16,284 nt of DNA from an uncultured Bacilli bacterium (GTDB lineage: Bacteria > Bacillota_I > Bacilli_A > RF39 > UBA660). Shown in pieces: positions 9,168 to 16,284 of this stretch. The first letter of the stretch is position 1. The number at the start of each line of letters is the position of its first letter. Made by a program: the position numbers and the translations under genes. The stretch spans positions 1 to 16,284 of the forward strand of contig CALVYX010000063.1 of NCBI GenBank assembly GCA_944372315.1, read 5' to 3'. Below the pieces are notes generated by a model that saw only the letters and a list, made by a program, of their open reading frames with translations, did not search any database and was not told the DNA's origin.

Positions 9168-10316
9168 TTGAAAAAATTATTGATAATTATTATGTTAATT
9201 GTCTTTCTTTTTCCGATAAATATTTACGCAGAAGAAGATTTGTTAAAAAATGCTAAAAGTGGTTTATTAATGGAAGCTACGACAGGAGAGATTTTGTATG
9301 ATAAAAATATGGATGAAAAAGTTGCAGTAGCATCAATGACTAAAATGGTAGCGCAAATTATAATCTTAGAAAATATTGAAAATGGAACTTTAAGTTGGGA
9401 TGAAAAAATTAAAGTAAGTAATAATGCAGCAGGTATGGGAGGATCTCAAATATGGTTACAACCAGGAGAAGAAATGACAGTAAGAGATTTAATGAAGGGA
9501 ATCACCATGGCTAGTGCTAATGATGCCACGGTAGCATTAGCAGAGAGAATTGGTGGAACTGAACAAAATTTTGTTAATATGATGAATGAAAAAGTGAAAG
9601 AATTAGGACTTAAAAATACTCATTTTGTAAATCCTACGGGGCTAGATGAAGAAAATCATTATTCTTCTGCGTATGATATGGGAATGATTGCTAAAGAATT
9701 ATTAACTCATGAAGAAATATTAGAATTTTCATCAGTATATGAAGATTATATAAGACAAGATACACCTAATAAATTCTGGGTGGTTAATACCAATAAATTA
9801 ATTAGATTTTATGAAGGTGCTGATGGATTAAAAACGGGATTTACTGATAATGCAGGTTATTGTATGGCAGTAACAGCTAAGAGAGATGATATGCGTCTTA
9901 TTGCTGTTGTTTTAGGAGAAGAAACAGGAAAAGTAAGAAATGAAGAAACATCTGAATTATTAGATTATGGATTTAATATGTATAAAGTGGATTTAGTAAA
10001 AAGTAAAGATGAAATTATAACTGATATTAAAATTGATAAGGGGGATAAAGAGAAAATAAGTTTATCAGCTAAAGAAGATTTATTAGTGTTAAAGAAAAAA
10101 TCAGAGCTTAGCAAAAAATATGATTTGGAGACTAAACTTAATGATATAAAATTACCTATTAAAGAAGGAGATGTTTTAGGTAAAGTTTTGGTAAAAGAGG
10201 GGAATAAGGTAATTAAAGAAGCAGAGTTAGTTGCTACTGAAAGCGTTAATAAATTAGGTTATATTAAGACTTTACTAGAAACGATCAAAGATATTTTAAC
10301 AGGAAGTATGATATAA
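9168..10316 (+). CDS. dacF: D-alanyl-D-alanine carboxypeptidase DacF (PBP5-like)
   Basis: Serine penicillin-binding protein that removes the terminal D-Ala of peptidoglycan, here probably in the spore cortex or forespore wall. The start is the TTG at 9168 after AGAGGTGA. The signal peptide ends near IYA-EE (residue 21). The three active-site motifs are present: SxxK at S56-K59 (ASMTKM), SxN at S116-N118 (MASANDA) and KTG at K222-G224 (GLKTGFTDNAG). A C-terminal beta domain (about 260-350) and an amphipathic tail helix that would rest on the membrane (YIKTLLETIKDILTG) follow. The 382 aa is normal. Its place upstream of the spoIIAA/sigF genes, as in Bacillus, identifies it as DacF rather than DacA or DacB. 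Confidence 0.92.
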   Translation: MKKLLIIIMLIVFLFPINIYAEEDLLKNAKSGLLMEATTGEILYDKNMDEKVAVASMTKMVAQIIILENIENGTLSWDEKIKVSNNAAGMGGSQIWLQPGEEMTVRDLMKGITMASANDATVALAERIGGTEQNFVNMMNEKVKELGLKNTHFVNPTGLDEENHYSSAYDMGMIAKELLTHEEILEFSSVYEDYIRQDTPNKFWVVNTNKLIRFYEGADGLKTGFTDNAGYCMAVTAKRDDMRLIAVVLGEETGKVRNEETSELLDYGFNMYKVDLVKSKDEIITDIKIDKGDKEKISLSAKEDLLVLKKKSELSKKYDLETKLNDIKLPIKEGDVLGKVLVKEGNKVIKEAELVATESVNKLGYIKTLLETIKDILTGSMI

Positions 10317-10323
10317 ATTTAGG

Positions 10324-10368
10324 AAATCACTTCGATATGTTCTATATATTATTGAGGTGATTTTTTTT
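10324..10368 (+). terminator. Terminator hairpin whose 3' arm holds the next ribosome site
   Basis: AAATCACTTC (10324-10333) pairs with GAGGTGATTT (10354-10363), 10 bp with one T-G pair and a 20-base loop, followed by T's up to 10368. The GAGGTGAT arm is also the only ribosome site for the TTG start at 10367, so the hairpin both ends most dacF transcripts and hides that site. Confidence 0.65.
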
Positions 10369-11245
10369 GAAGAAATATTTATTACTTTTTTTATTTTTGT
10401 TTTTTAGTCCATTAATAGTTCGTGCTGAAACTTATTATTTTGATTATACAGAATATTTTTATTCAGATGAAGAAATAGAAGAATCTAATGAGGTAGAAGT
10501 CAATAAAATATTTGATGGAAATAAGTGGATTTATAAATACCGTTTTAGAAATTATCTGATATTGCCAGATAATTTAGTTATTAACTCTAGAGATTTTAAT
10601 TTTACTGATATTATGGAGACCAATATTTCTTTAGATCAATTTATAATAAATAAAATATATAATCTAAATGCGATGAATAATTGTGAAGCTTTAGTAGAAA
10701 TTCATTATCGTGATAATTTTATTAGAAAAAGTCTTTATATTGATATAGATTATTATATTAATGTTCCGGAGTTTATTATAATAGATAGTTATGATTTTGA
10801 TATTTGGAATTATATAGATACTGATATTCCAATGAAAGACCACATAAGAATAGAAGGAGAATATGATTTAAATACTAATGGTGAATATTATTTAACTATT
10901 AGTTATGATGATGTTTTTAAAGAAATTAAATTAATTGTTGATAATGAAAATAATGAAAATGACTTTATGGATAAGGAAGAAATATTAACTGAAGAAGAAA
11001 AAAATTATAATGTAAATAAAAAAATAATTTATGACCAAAATAAAAAAATATATAATACTTATAATAATTCTTATCCGGTAACAAAAAACGAAGAAAATTC
11101 ATCCTGTGATTTAAAATGTCCTTTAAATACTAGGGTGATATACAGTAGTTGTGTGCAAGATAATCCAATATTAAGTTATATTTCATATGGATTTTATTCT
11201 ATTATAATTGTTCTTTTGTCGATAATTGTCGTAAGAAAAAAATGA
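10367..11245 (+). CDS. Exported, membrane-anchored protein of unknown function in the sporulation cluster
   Basis: The start is the TTG at 10367, after GAGGTGAT. It has a signal peptide (residues 1-20, cut after VRA), an outside domain of about 245 residues and a C-terminal membrane segment (about 270-289, YISYGFYSIIIVLLSIIVV) ending RKK. That is an outward-facing type-I layout. Residues about 134-192 have the rhythm of a bacterial Ig-like beta sandwich (EGEYDLNTNGEYYLTISYDD then IKLIV). A charged, Asn-rich stretch (193-245) leads to three cysteines close to the membrane (C247, C251, C262); a fourth is C106. I do not recognise the family. It lies between dacF and the spoIIAA-like gene, where Bacillus has no gene. 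Confidence 0.78.
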   Translation: MKKYLLLFLFLFFSPLIVRAETYYFDYTEYFYSDEEIEESNEVEVNKIFDGNKWIYKYRFRNYLILPDNLVINSRDFNFTDIMETNISLDQFIINKIYNLNAMNNCEALVEIHYRDNFIRKSLYIDIDYYINVPEFIIIDSYDFDIWNYIDTDIPMKDHIRIEGEYDLNTNGEYYLTISYDDVFKEIKLIVDNENNENDFMDKEEILTEEEKNYNVNKKIIYDQNKKIYNTYNNSYPVTKNEENSSCDLKCPLNTRVIYSSCVQDNPILSYISYGFYSIIIVLLSIIVVRKK

Positions 11246-11269
11246 CAGATTTTGTCGAATATGTATAAT
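11217..11269 (+). promoter_or_regulatory. Spo0A-box promoter of the spoIIAA-sigF-spoVA genes
   Basis: -35 ATGACA (11242-11247), a 16-bp spacer and -10 TATAAT (11264-11269). An exact Spo0A box TGTCGAA (11253-11259, inside TTTTGTCGAATA) lies in the spacer. Two 6-of-7 boxes, TGTCGAT (11217-11223) and TGTCGTA (11227-11233), lie just upstream in the same orientation. The -35 overlaps the stop codon of the preceding gene. In Bacillus the spoIIA operon is switched on by Spo0A-phosphate, though with sigma-H rather than sigma-A. Confidence 0.65.
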
Positions 11270-11311
11270 TTTTTTTAAAAATAATCTATTATTTAATAGC
11301 GAGGCGATAAT

Positions 11312-11650
11312 ATGCTTAAAATAGAAATAGAATATAAAAAAGGAATTTTATTTGTAAGATTAATAGGAGAAGTCAATAAATCGACAATAAAAAACATGGA
11401 TATAGTAGATAATATGATTAAGCGAGCTGGAATAAAATATTTATTAATTAATTTAGAAAAAGTAACAATAATAAGACATGAAGAAATAGCATTATTAATT
11501 TCAAAATATAAAGATTTAATAGGAGATGATGGGAAATTATTAATCTGTGGATATTATGACTCATTAAAATTAAAAGTAGATATGAAAGATATTGATAAAA
11601 TCTATTGGTCAGGACAAGAAGTAAGTGCGTTTAATATTATTAATATTTAA
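11312..11650 (+). CDS. SpoIIAA-like STAS-domain protein lacking the phosphoserine motif
   Basis: Single STAS domain of 112 aa (Bacillus SpoIIAA is 117). It has the right fold pattern: GILFVRLIGEVNKST, then YLLINLEKV, and KLLICGYYDSLK. SpoIIAA is the anti-anti-sigma factor that frees sigma-F from SpoIIAB and is inactivated by SpoIIAB phosphorylating the Ser of the DSSG motif. By alignment with LNLEDLSFMDSSGLG, that motif is replaced here by Arg-His-Glu-Glu (55-58), so the phosphorylated Ser corresponds to His56. No spoIIAB lies between it and sigF, only 12 bases. The position just upstream of sigF and the ~30 to 35% visible similarity support descent from spoIIAA. Whether it still acts as anti-anti-sigma is open. 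Confidence 0.75.
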   Translation: MLKIEIEYKKGILFVRLIGEVNKSTIKNMDIVDNMIKRAGIKYLLINLEKVTIIRHEEIALLISKYKDLIGDDGKLLICGYYDSLKLKVDMKDIDKIYWSGQEVSAFNIINI

Positions 11651-11662
11651 GGAGCTAAAATA

Positions 11663-12310
11663 ATGGAAGAACATGAATATGCAAAAATGATTTATAGTAT
11701 TGCTCGTAAGTATAGTTTTGGAAATGATTTTGAAGATTTATGTCAAGTAGGGCAAATCGGACTTTTAAAAGCTTTAGAAAATTATGATCCGGAGTATGGA
11801 AGTAAATTTTCATCTTATGCTTATACTTATATTCAAGGAGAAATATTAAAATATGTAAGAGAAAATAAAGTTATAAAAATAAGTAAAGATTTAATTGCTT
11901 TAAATAAATCGATAACAAATGCCAAAGAAGTGTTAACTCAAAAAATGATGCGTGTACCAACGAATGAAGAATTAGCATTATTTTTAGAGATACCAGAGGA
12001 AAAAATTATAGAAGCATCTATGGCATCTGAATATGTTAAGAGTCTAGATTACGAATTAAATGATGAAGGAAAAGAATTAACTTTATATGACTCTATTAGT
12101 TATGAAGAAAAAGGATATAATGATAATATTTTAGATTTAAAAGAAGAATTAGCATTGTTACCGGAGGAAGAAAGAAAATTAATAGTAGCTAGATATTATG
12201 AGGATAAAAGTCAACAAGAAACATCAGAAATGTTAGGAATTAGTCAAGTTCAAGTATCTAGAAATGAATCAAAAATATTAACTAAGCTAAAGACTAAATT
12301 AGCTAGTTAA
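11663..12310 (+). CDS. sigF: Sporulation sigma factor SigF
   Basis: Forespore-specific RNA polymerase sigma factor. The ATG at 11663 follows AAGGAGC. Region 2 covers about 20-70 (FEDLCQVGQIGLLKALENYDPEYGSKFSSYAYTYI style motif). Region 3 runs to about 125, with RVPTNEEL and LEIPEE. Region 4 covers about 160-212, with the helix-turn-helix SQQETSEMLGISQVQVSR, identical to Bacillus SigF over GISQVQVSR. The 215 aa is shorter than Bacillus SigF (255): about 35 residues of the N-terminal region 1.2 are missing, and no upstream in-frame start could supply them. Gene order (STAS gene before, spoVAC after) fixes it as sigF rather than sigG or sigE. Confidence 0.9.
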   Translation: MEEHEYAKMIYSIARKYSFGNDFEDLCQVGQIGLLKALENYDPEYGSKFSSYAYTYIQGEILKYVRENKVIKISKDLIALNKSITNAKEVLTQKMMRVPTNEELALFLEIPEEKIIEASMASEYVKSLDYELNDEGKELTLYDSISYEEKGYNDNILDLKEELALLPEEERKLIVARYYEDKSQQETSEMLGISQVQVSRNESKILTKLKTKLAS

Positions 12311-12364: not shown

Positions 12365-12808
12365 ATGGAAAAAAAAGAATATAAGAAGATTGTTGATCGA
12401 CATAAACCTACGGAAAATAGAGTACAAAACGCTGTCATTAGTTTTTTAGTAGGTGGACTAGTTGGAGTTATTGGTCAAGGATTAATTGATTTTTATTCTA
12501 GTTGGCTAGAAATATCTACCAGGGATGCTTCTACTTTCATGACGGTTACGTTAGTATTTGTAGCGTCACTATTTACAGCATTAGGTTTTTTTGATAAATG
12601 GGTAACTTTTGCTAGATGTGGTCTTATTATTCCTATCACAGGTTTTGCCCATTCCATGACTAGTGCTGGTATTGAATACCGCAAAGAAGGACCTATTTAT
12701 GGTTTAGGAATGAATATTTTTAAATTAGCAGGTTCCGTTATTTTATATGGAATTGTATCAGCGTGGTTGTTTGGTACTGTTAGATACTTATTGTTGGGAG
12801 GATTATAA
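12365..12808 (+). CDS. spoVAC: Spore DPA-channel protein SpoVAC
   Basis: Inner-membrane channel component needed for dipicolinic acid movement into the forespore and its release at germination. The 147 aa matches the family. A charged cytoplasmic N-terminus (MEKKEYKKIVDRHKPTENR) precedes about four membrane segments. Family landmarks are NAVISFLVGGLVGVIGQGL, STFMTVTLVFVASLFTALGFFD, IIPITGFAHSM and YGLGMNIFKLAGSVILYG. The ribosome site is TTAGGTGAT. It is followed two bases later by spoVAD. Genes spoVAA and spoVAB, found between sigF and spoVAC in Bacillus, are absent, as in many clostridia. Confidence 0.95.
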   Translation: MEKKEYKKIVDRHKPTENRVQNAVISFLVGGLVGVIGQGLIDFYSSWLEISTRDASTFMTVTLVFVASLFTALGFFDKWVTFARCGLIIPITGFAHSMTSAGIEYRKEGPIYGLGMNIFKLAGSVILYGIVSAWLFGTVRYLLLGGL

Positions 12809-12810
12809 TT

Positions 12811-13806
12811 ATGACCTATAAATATAATAATGTTTATGTTGGTGGATATTCTACTGTAGTAGGACCTTACGAAAAAGACGGACCACTAGGGAAGCATTTT
12901 GATAAGTATTATACTAACTTATATAATGGGGAAGAAACATGGGAACAAGCAGAAGTTAGACTTCTTACTGATAGTATTGATATTTTGTTAAAGAAAACTC
13001 ATAAAGATAAGAAAAACATTGATTTATTGATATCAGGAGATTTACTAAATCAGGTTACATCATCTAGTTATGCCGCTTTAAAATTTGATATACCATTCTT
13101 TGGAATTTATAGTGCATGTGCTTCTAGTGCGGAAGGAATTATTCTAGGGTCAAGTTTAATTGATGGGGATAAAATTAAAAACTGTATTGCTGCTACTTCT
13201 TCACATAATATGTCTAGTGAAAAGCAATTTAGAAATCCTACTGAATATGGTGCTCCTAAACCTAAAACAGCGACGTTTACGTCAACTGGAGGAGCTAGTA
13301 TCTATTTAACTAAAGAAAAAAGTAATATAAAAGTTGAATCATCTACTATTGGAAAAGTTGTTGATATGGGTCAAACAGATCCCTTCAATATGGGGGCAGT
13401 TATGGCAGCAGCGGCAGGAGATACTATATATGAACACTTAAAAGCTTTAAAAAGAGAACCTAATTATTATGATTTAATTATAACTGGAGATTTAGGAATT
13501 TATGGAAAAGAAATATTAATCGATTACATGCATACGGAATATGGTCTTGATATAAGTAATAATTATGATGATGCTGGAACTATGTTATATGATTTAAATA
13601 AACAAGAAGAAGTTATGGCTGGAGGATCAGGCCCAGTATGTAGTGCTTTAGTAATATATTCTAAGATTCTTCCAAGAATGGAAAAGGGAGAATTAGGCCG
13701 AGTATTATTTGTACCTACTGGTGCATTATTTTCTCCAACTTTTGTATATCAACATGAAAATATAAATTCTATTGCTCATGCAATTAGTTTGGAGGCGGTA
13801 AGATGA
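12811..13806 (+). CDS. spoVAD: Spore DPA-binding protein SpoVAD
   Basis: Thiolase-fold protein of the spore inner membrane that binds Ca-dipicolinate in Bacillus. The 331 aa is normal. Landmarks: NVYVGGYSTVVGPYEKDGPLG at the N-terminus, DLLISGDLLNQ, and the thiolase-like cysteine C103 in GIYSACASSAEG. These are followed by SSHNMSSEKQFRNP, DLIITGDLGIYG and MAGGSGPVCSA. The ATG at 12811 follows GGGAGGATTATA. It overlaps spoVAE by 4 bases (ATGA), so the two are translationally coupled. Confidence 0.95.
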   Translation: MTYKYNNVYVGGYSTVVGPYEKDGPLGKHFDKYYTNLYNGEETWEQAEVRLLTDSIDILLKKTHKDKKNIDLLISGDLLNQVTSSSYAALKFDIPFFGIYSACASSAEGIILGSSLIDGDKIKNCIAATSSHNMSSEKQFRNPTEYGAPKPKTATFTSTGGASIYLTKEKSNIKVESSTIGKVVDMGQTDPFNMGAVMAAAAGDTIYEHLKALKREPNYYDLIITGDLGIYGKEILIDYMHTEYGLDISNNYDDAGTMLYDLNKQEEVMAGGSGPVCSALVIYSKILPRMEKGELGRVLFVPTGALFSPTFVYQHENINSIAHAISLEAVR

Positions 13807-14153
13807 TATATGTATATTCATTTTTATTTGCTGGGTTTGTATCCATGTTAGGTCAACTCATTTTAGATAATACCAAATTAACAGCAGGTCATATTACTAG
13901 TATGTTTGTTGTATTAGGAGCATTTCTTGATAGTTTTAGTATGTATGATAAAATTATAGCTTATGTAGGTGGAGGAGCTTTAGTTCCTATTACAAGTTTT
14001 GGACATTCCTTAATTCATGGAGCATTAGCTAAAGCTAGTGAATATGGATTAATTGGAATTTTAACAGGTATGTTTGATCTTACAGCATCAGGAATTACTT
14101 CAGCAATCATCTTTACATTTGTCTTTAGTTTGTTCTTTAGACCTAAGAACTAA
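13803..14153 (+). CDS. spoVAE: Spore DPA-channel protein SpoVAE (SpoVAEb type)
   Basis: Small integral membrane protein of the SpoVA channel, 116 aa, the same as Bacillus SpoVAEb, with about four membrane segments. It is a paralogue of SpoVAC: LGQLILD against IGQGLID, ALVPITSFGHSL against LIIPITGFAHSM, and LTGMFDLTASGITSAI against LGMNIFKLAGSVI. The start overlaps the spoVAD stop, with TTGGAGG upstream. It is the last gene of the sporulation transcript. SpoVAEa and SpoVAF do not follow. Confidence 0.94.
   Translation: MIYVYSFLFAGFVSMLGQLILDNTKLTAGHITSMFVVLGAFLDSFSMYDKIIAYVGGGALVPITSFGHSLIHGALAKASEYGLIGILTGMFDLTASGITSAIIFTFVFSLFFRPKN

Positions 14154-16035: not shown

Positions 16036-16284
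<249 letters not shown>

Follow-up and report, generated by a model that had tools for sequence, protein, structure and literature searches.

How can sigma-F be controlled in a bacterium whose spoIIA operon seems to hold no gene for the anti-sigma kinase SpoIIAB? This question is raised by a 16,284-nt stretch of DNA from an uncultured Bacilli bacterium (the whole stretch that was analysed, hereafter the window), in which a gene for a STAS protein lies directly before sigF. In Bacillus, dacF precedes the spoIIA operon and spoVA genes follow it. The window shows a comparable arrangement (Table 1), with scpA and scpB also present after spoVAE. Only 12 nt separate the STAS stop codon from the sigF start and they contain no open reading frame (ORF), so spoIIAB is indeed missing from its usual place before sigF, as the original prediction had it. 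The best explanation of the locus is a reduced spoIIA operon, consisting of a spoIIAA-like STAS gene and sigF. Compared with the spoIIA operon of Bacillus and Clostridium (spoIIAA-spoIIAB-sigF) and its SpoIIE, it is alike in the dacF-like gene before it, the spoVA genes after it, the SpoIIAA-type STAS fold, the Spo0A-type promoter and the SigF-family sigma factor. It is unlike that operon in that the STAS gene directly adjoins sigF, the window STAS has no phosphorylatable serine, neither SpoIIAB nor SpoIIE is found above cut-off in 97 relatives, and the N-terminus of sigma-F in the order is shorter on average.

Table 1. Features of the window around the STAS-sigF pair, with the evidence for each.
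Feature	Position	Strand	Evidence
dacF-like D-Ala-D-Ala carboxypeptidase (Peptidase_S11 and PBP5_C)	9168..10316	+	PF00768, E 3.8e-79
292-aa protein of no family, membrane/secretion features by eye	10367..11245	+	best Pfam match E 0.03, below cut-off
Spo0A box TTTGTCGAA upstream of STAS-sigF	11251..11259	+	TGTCGAA motif
-35-like element GTATAA, its spacing from the 0A box conserved	11263..11268	+	alignment of 70 loci on the box
-10-like element TATTAT, 18 nt past the -35-like element	11287..11292	+	alignment of 70 loci on the box
STAS protein, SpoIIAA relative with RHEE replacing DSSG	11312..11650	+	112 aa; family and alignment matches
sigma-F (sigF/spoIIAC), 215 aa, short N-terminus	11663..12310	+	family, structure-entry and position evidence
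spoVAC	12365..12808	+	TIGR02838, 157.2 bits (cut-off 164)
spoVAD	12811..13806	+	NF006160, 413.7 bits (above cut-off 402)
spoVAE (spoVAEB)	13803..14153	+	TIGR02839, 127.6 bits (cut-off 131.1)

The best family for the window STAS is SpoIIAA (TIGR02886, E 3.6e-11), at 43 bits against the curated equivalog score of 114.75, which it does not reach. PDB entry 1th8_B, a Geobacillus SpoIIAA, matches its sequence (E 2.3e-9), and in this HMMER alignment Arg-His-Glu-Glu (RHEE) lies under Asp-Ser-Ser-Gly (DSSG), which confirms the pairing originally drawn by eye. With RHEE in this place, the window STAS is left without the phosphorylatable serine of DSSG. Its predicted structure (mean pLDDT 85.5) has 1th8_B as its best PDB match (E 3.8e-8, TMq 0.82), and judging by this model the protein keeps the SpoIIAA fold.

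The sigma factor encoded at the spoIIA position belongs to the SigB/F/G group, with scores of 192 bits for TIGR02980 and 169.8 bits for the sigF model TIGR02885 (equivalog cut-off 321.45 bits), both below cut-off. Among solved structures it matches 1l0o_C best (118.3 bits), which we take to be sigma-F of the SpoIIAB complex entry. By sequence the protein appears to be a diverged sigma-F member, and we base the label on the dacF-like gene upstream, on spoVAC-spoVAD-spoVAE downstream and on a separate SigG in two relatives tested. Every one of the 97 order genomes has some match to the sigF model, but these matches include SigG and further sigma factors. Two kinds of SigF/G genes occur there: a conserved kind with frames of about 260–290 aa, and a shorter, faster-evolving kind, mostly of 205–235 aa, at the STAS position. 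The long paralog was ruled out as the true sigma-F, since in both relatives for which it was tested it proved to be SigG (370.7 and 350.6 bits), and the short gene at the STAS position is taken here as sigma-F. In its commonest cases, 7–21 residues precede Gst Arg39, compared with 14–49 in 22 canonical sequences, the longest possible starts being used in this comparison. Two sigF frames are broken or shortened, to 149 and 182 aa (L129 in G100, with a TGA inside the frame, and L154 in G064); they could be pseudogenes or assembly errors.

Genome-wide searches for SpoIIAB and SpoIIE were run in relatives of the window, namely a sample of 97 genomes, all from a single order and taken out of a larger group. 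Genome G008 served as the centre both for this order sample and for a class sample of 149 genomes, which includes order members. A contig scan with SigF gave 11 loci, ten of them from relatives with SigF 50–98% identical over the best segment; in the remaining locus, L011 from a Spirochaetes record, the match spans 23 residues, and this locus was left out. The ten closest relatives are metagenome-assembled genomes (MAGs) of a Bacilli or Bacillota bacterium. The SpoIIAB model TIGR01925 exceeds its cut-off in 0/97 order genomes. Weak matches occur in 88 of the 97 and, among the matches listed, all lie in frames of at least 208 aa. As a control, the model passes its cut-off in 32/149 class genomes in frames of 134–165 aa; in the class it also gives short-frame relatives at about 40–57 bits, which on reading are RsbW-like. 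PF13581 behaves alike in the ten closest genomes, with weak matches in eight, none of the ten above cut-off and frames of 344–790 aa. The weak HATPase matches were rejected as hidden SpoIIAB on the basis of nine frames, the eight with PF13581 matches and L036 from the TIGR01925 search: eight of the nine contain HATPase_c, six of these also HisKA, and the ninth (L018) is a histidine kinase by eye. This ninth frame (G001:C99), which comes from a very closely related MAG, has by eye a GC-rich amino-acid make-up and is possibly contamination of that MAG.

The phosphatase gives the same picture. SpoIIE (PF07228) was found in none of the ten closest genomes and in 0/97 order genomes above cut-off; the one weak match, in G068, was dismissed, the protein being PP2C_2. 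In these searches of the relatives, neither a stand-alone kinase/anti-sigma of the SpoIIAB/RsbW type nor a SpoIIE/RsbU-type PP2C phosphatase was found above cut-off, the two parts of a GHKL partner-switching module. Since Spo0A was found in 93/97 and SpoIIR in 86/97 of the order genomes, the SpoIIAB/SpoIIE gap cannot in most of them be put down to incomplete genomes or to sporulation having been lost. The earlier claim that the classic partner switch is gone is supported by both gene absences, together with a phosphoserine that is absent from 65 of 74 order STAS proteins. Its loss looks order-wide, which these counts support, and the observation made at the window is confirmed as a trait of the sampled order, not a one-locus oddity.

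In the alignment of the 74 order STAS proteins, the column of Ser58 holds E in 20, N in 12, S in 9, M in 6 and other residues in the rest. It is Ser in all 25 SpoIIAA encoded beside SpoIIAB in the same class, a canonical set obtained from the 26 fetched of 32 SpoIIAB-bearing class loci, one of which was too short. The change extends beyond the phosphosite. Seventeen canonical positions are now variable (entropy below 0.8 in canonical SpoIIAA and above 2 in order STAS): E21, D23, L48, F55, S58, S59, L61, G62, L65, G66, R67, Y68, K72, S94, G95, L96 and I99. Six others (8, 12, 13, 15, 17 and 81) are newly conserved in the order (entropy below 0.9 there and above 1.6 in canonical SpoIIAA). Across ten hand-chosen STAS pairs, some sharing one member, NG86 dN/dS lies between 0.05 and 0.34; the protein is under purifying selection and is not decaying. 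The STAS of one locus (L134 in G074) still carries DSSG, and TIGR01925 has no match whatever in this genome, so a retained serine is not by itself a sign of a kinase.

How firmly is this altered STAS protein tied to sigma-F? We surveyed 91 sigF loci (the window, L001–L010 and L077–L156), covering 83 of the 97 genomes; the other 14 mostly have no visible short sigF and include two with a STAS match (G094 and G095). In 74/91 loci the gene immediately preceding sigF, on the same strand, encodes a STAS protein; this count is biased by 15 loci picked through their STAS match (L142–L156), and among the 76 loci not picked in this way the figure is 59. In 70 of the 74 pairs the two genes are spaced by -35 to +20 nt, and 32 of the 74 overlap. 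Such close spacing indicates a pairing beyond chance. Misplaced or broken sigF starts probably account for two longer gaps, of 150 and 175 nt. No same-strand ORF of at least 55 aa lies between STAS and sigF in 73/74 pairs, the exception (L154) being a 56-aa frame that abuts the shortened sigF.

In the other 17 of the 91 loci, STAS is not adjacent to sigF, and a profile built from the STAS proteins of the order found none anywhere in these 17 genomes. The profile detected 5/5 positive controls missed by TIGR02886, a model that matches in 65/97 order genomes and passes its cut-off in 0/97, while PF01740 found STAS in only four of the ten closest genomes though seven carry a sigF-linked one and is thus too weak. 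In those ten genomes the profile gives exactly one STAS, linked to sigF, in seven and none in the other three; a second SpoIIAA, which would have spoken against the original prediction, was accordingly not found there. Four genomes show a second, weaker TIGR02886 match in the search of the 97, in frames of 82–88 aa, two with a stop. Another STAS match (G018:C8:28373-28585, E 2.1e-12) lies in a genome in which no SpoIIR was found and whose sigF locus falls outside the survey. On a SigF tree of 88 sequences longer than 195 aa, nine changes, at least six of them forced by well supported branches, are required to explain where STAS is absent, and SpoIIR is present in 14 of the 15 STAS-less genomes that belong to the 97. 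This repeated absence argues that STAS is not indispensable and not an essential gatekeeper.

Upstream of the pair, the window carries TGTCGAA, which we take to be the motif named the 0A box. On either strand and within 180 bp upstream, it is found in 75/91 loci, as compared with 0.93 expected by base shuffling, the loci being related and hence not independent. When 70 loci are aligned on the box, it is followed at conserved spacing by GTxTAA, then a TATATT-like element, then the ribosome site and the start. The box in the window promoter and the Spo0A C-terminal domain in 93/97 relatives mark this as a Spo0A-controlled operon. The box also occurs upstream of 12 of the 17 STAS-less sigF genes and of canonical spoIIAA in 14/25 loci (0.37 expected). 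The latter count makes it ancestral: Spo0A control has been kept and is not new, which excludes the promoter as a newly arisen replacement control. Of the suggestion that sigma-F is now controlled by transcription, what stands is that the 0A box is real; what falls is a replacement arising here, as canonical operons have the box too. Two or three boxes within 150 bp are seen in 11/70 promoters (L003, L009, L154 and others) and might be tandem Spo0A sites, going by the motif.

A direct contact between STAS and sigma-F, also proposed from the window, fares less clearly. In its favour count the tight gene spacing, the newly conserved STAS positions and the way STAS distances follow those of SigF more than those of SpoVAC (partial r 0.387 versus 0.121, n = 49 loci, with a single control gene). 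Against it, or neutral to it, are a fused STAS-SigF AlphaFold2 model that shows no packing (pTM 0.37, from an alignment in which SigF is only shallowly covered), the repeated absence of STAS, and the positions newly conserved in SigF (K80, Y88, Q125 and K241 in Gst numbering), which are kept in STAS-less loci too. The fused alignment that was folded (A6) has three SigF-only rows and was judged good from its identity list; three others (A2, A4 and A5) were dropped for having STAS-only rows aligned over SigF. On balance we regard the contact as possible but doubtful.

The reading that we favour, at a probability of roughly 0.6, is that the phospho-switch is gone, that Spo0A-driven transcription switches sigma-F on, and that STAS has been re-purposed as a dispensable modulator which perhaps binds sigma-F. 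Under this reading, spoIIAB and spoIIE would both have been lost, presumably in a single event, in the ancestor of the whole uncultured Bacilli order, most likely RF39, whose published gene losses agree with those seen here, and with them the kinase/phosphatase partner switch would have ceased to exist. Sigma-F and the STAS protein would be co-produced from the Spo0A-type promoter, so that commitment would be set mainly by Spo0A transcription, and Spo0A alone may set sigma-F activity. STAS, with the canonical residues lost and a new set fixed (positions 8–17 and 81), would no longer act as a phospho-switch; it would be the co-produced, dispensable modulator, most likely touching sigma-F itself. 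A stronger version makes STAS a direct, phosphorylation-free partner of sigma-F (an anti-sigma or a stabiliser), made together with it from closely coupled genes, that replaced the three-protein switch across the order, with several daughter lineages now devoid of any known partner-switch protein; we put this forward tentatively, as something rather improbable.

Several alternatives share parts of this evidence. Control could be purely transcriptional, with Spo0A acting only through timing, dose or chromosome position, and STAS being a relic or having an unrelated job and being lost stepwise. The 17 genomes from which STAS is missing, across at least six changes on the tree, agree with it, as sigF stays, SpoIIR is present in 14 of the 15 checked and the 0A box stands upstream of 12 of the 17 STAS-less sigF genes as well. 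However, a STAS that sits beside sigF in 74/91 loci, overlapping or closely spaced, with dN/dS of 0.05–0.34 and six newly conserved positions, is unlike a decaying relic, which leaves this account conceivable without making it probable. Those same changed positions are what would be expected if STAS had acquired a new partner, as when an unrelated and so far unrecognised anti-sigma factor had taken the place of SpoIIAB and STAS antagonised it through them, giving a switch that works without phosphorylation. Yet 73/74 pairs have no same-strand ORF of at least 55 aa between the two genes and the family and neighbourhood searches found no candidate, and we therefore consider such a factor unlikely. 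Finally, SpoIIAB might have been relocated or have diverged too far for the models while still working with STAS; the counts come from relatives, and MAGs may be incomplete. This is highly improbable in view of 0/97 genomes above cut-off, frames of at least 208 aa throughout among the matches listed, the ability of TIGR01925 to pick up short-frame class relatives at about 40–57 bits, and the loss from STAS of the phosphoserine and other canonical positions too.

Returning to the favoured reading, the absence of spoIIAB and spoIIE is partly in print, while we found nothing published on the STAS, promoter and operon evidence, which appears to be new. In the text available, PMC10868615 (2024) describes both genes as reduced or absent in the order RF39; its main text names neither spoIIAA nor sigF and, as far as that text goes, holds nothing on the STAS site, the promoter or the operon structure. 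Table 3 of PMC3533761, in the portion available, places spoIIAA, spoIIAB, sigF and spoIIE among the genes shared by all bacilli and clostridia that form spores. The accessible part of PMC11536998 mentions RF39 a single time and is silent on these genes, and in open PMC text, as far as accessible, we found no description of a phosphosite-less SpoIIAA or of a STAS-sigF pair without SpoIIAB. A near parallel comes from Actinoplanes, where sigma-SsdA is a sigma factor with a built-in anti-sigma-antagonist domain and SipA has an anti-sigma domain (PMC10733313, from the excerpts available). Both cases tie a sigma factor closely to an anti-sigma-antagonist domain; unlike the pair described here, the Actinoplanes system, according to those excerpts, has both domains in one protein, plus SipA as the protein with the anti-sigma domain.

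The first compartment-specific switch of the textbooks seems to be removable, to judge by an order that keeps sigF, SpoIIR and Spo0A but shows neither the kinase nor the phosphatase, and this raises the question of what tells forespore from mother cell without it. The gut bacteria of this order still seem built for spore-making, with an early step of sporulation that needs other control. There is a practical side as well: in the available text of PMC12536801, all 63 MAGs predicted to sporulate have spoIIAB, and the RF39 MAGs of its cattle set were given a 0% sporulation probability.

The surroundings of the operon offer some further observations. NCBIfam gives no match for the 292-aa protein encoded before the promoter; by eye, it and a counterpart at L002:1216-2094 show a leader as well as a membrane anchor at the C-terminus, and in both loci this family-less anchored protein sits between dacF and the operon. 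A similar-looking protein lies upstream at L010:4380-5546, and other genes fill this place elsewhere; given this inconsistent presence in relatives, the neighbour was ruled out as a part of the module. The dacF-like S11 carboxypeptidase gene adjoins one for a VanY-type D-Ala-D-Ala carboxypeptidase on the opposite strand (PF02557, 8167-9018, minus strand), placing two cell-wall carboxypeptidase genes side by side in the window. Past scpB, a serine recombinase gene begins (16059-16284; PF00239, the N-terminal domain of Resolvase, at 24.7 bits) and is cut off by the end of the window; it may mark the border of a mobile element.
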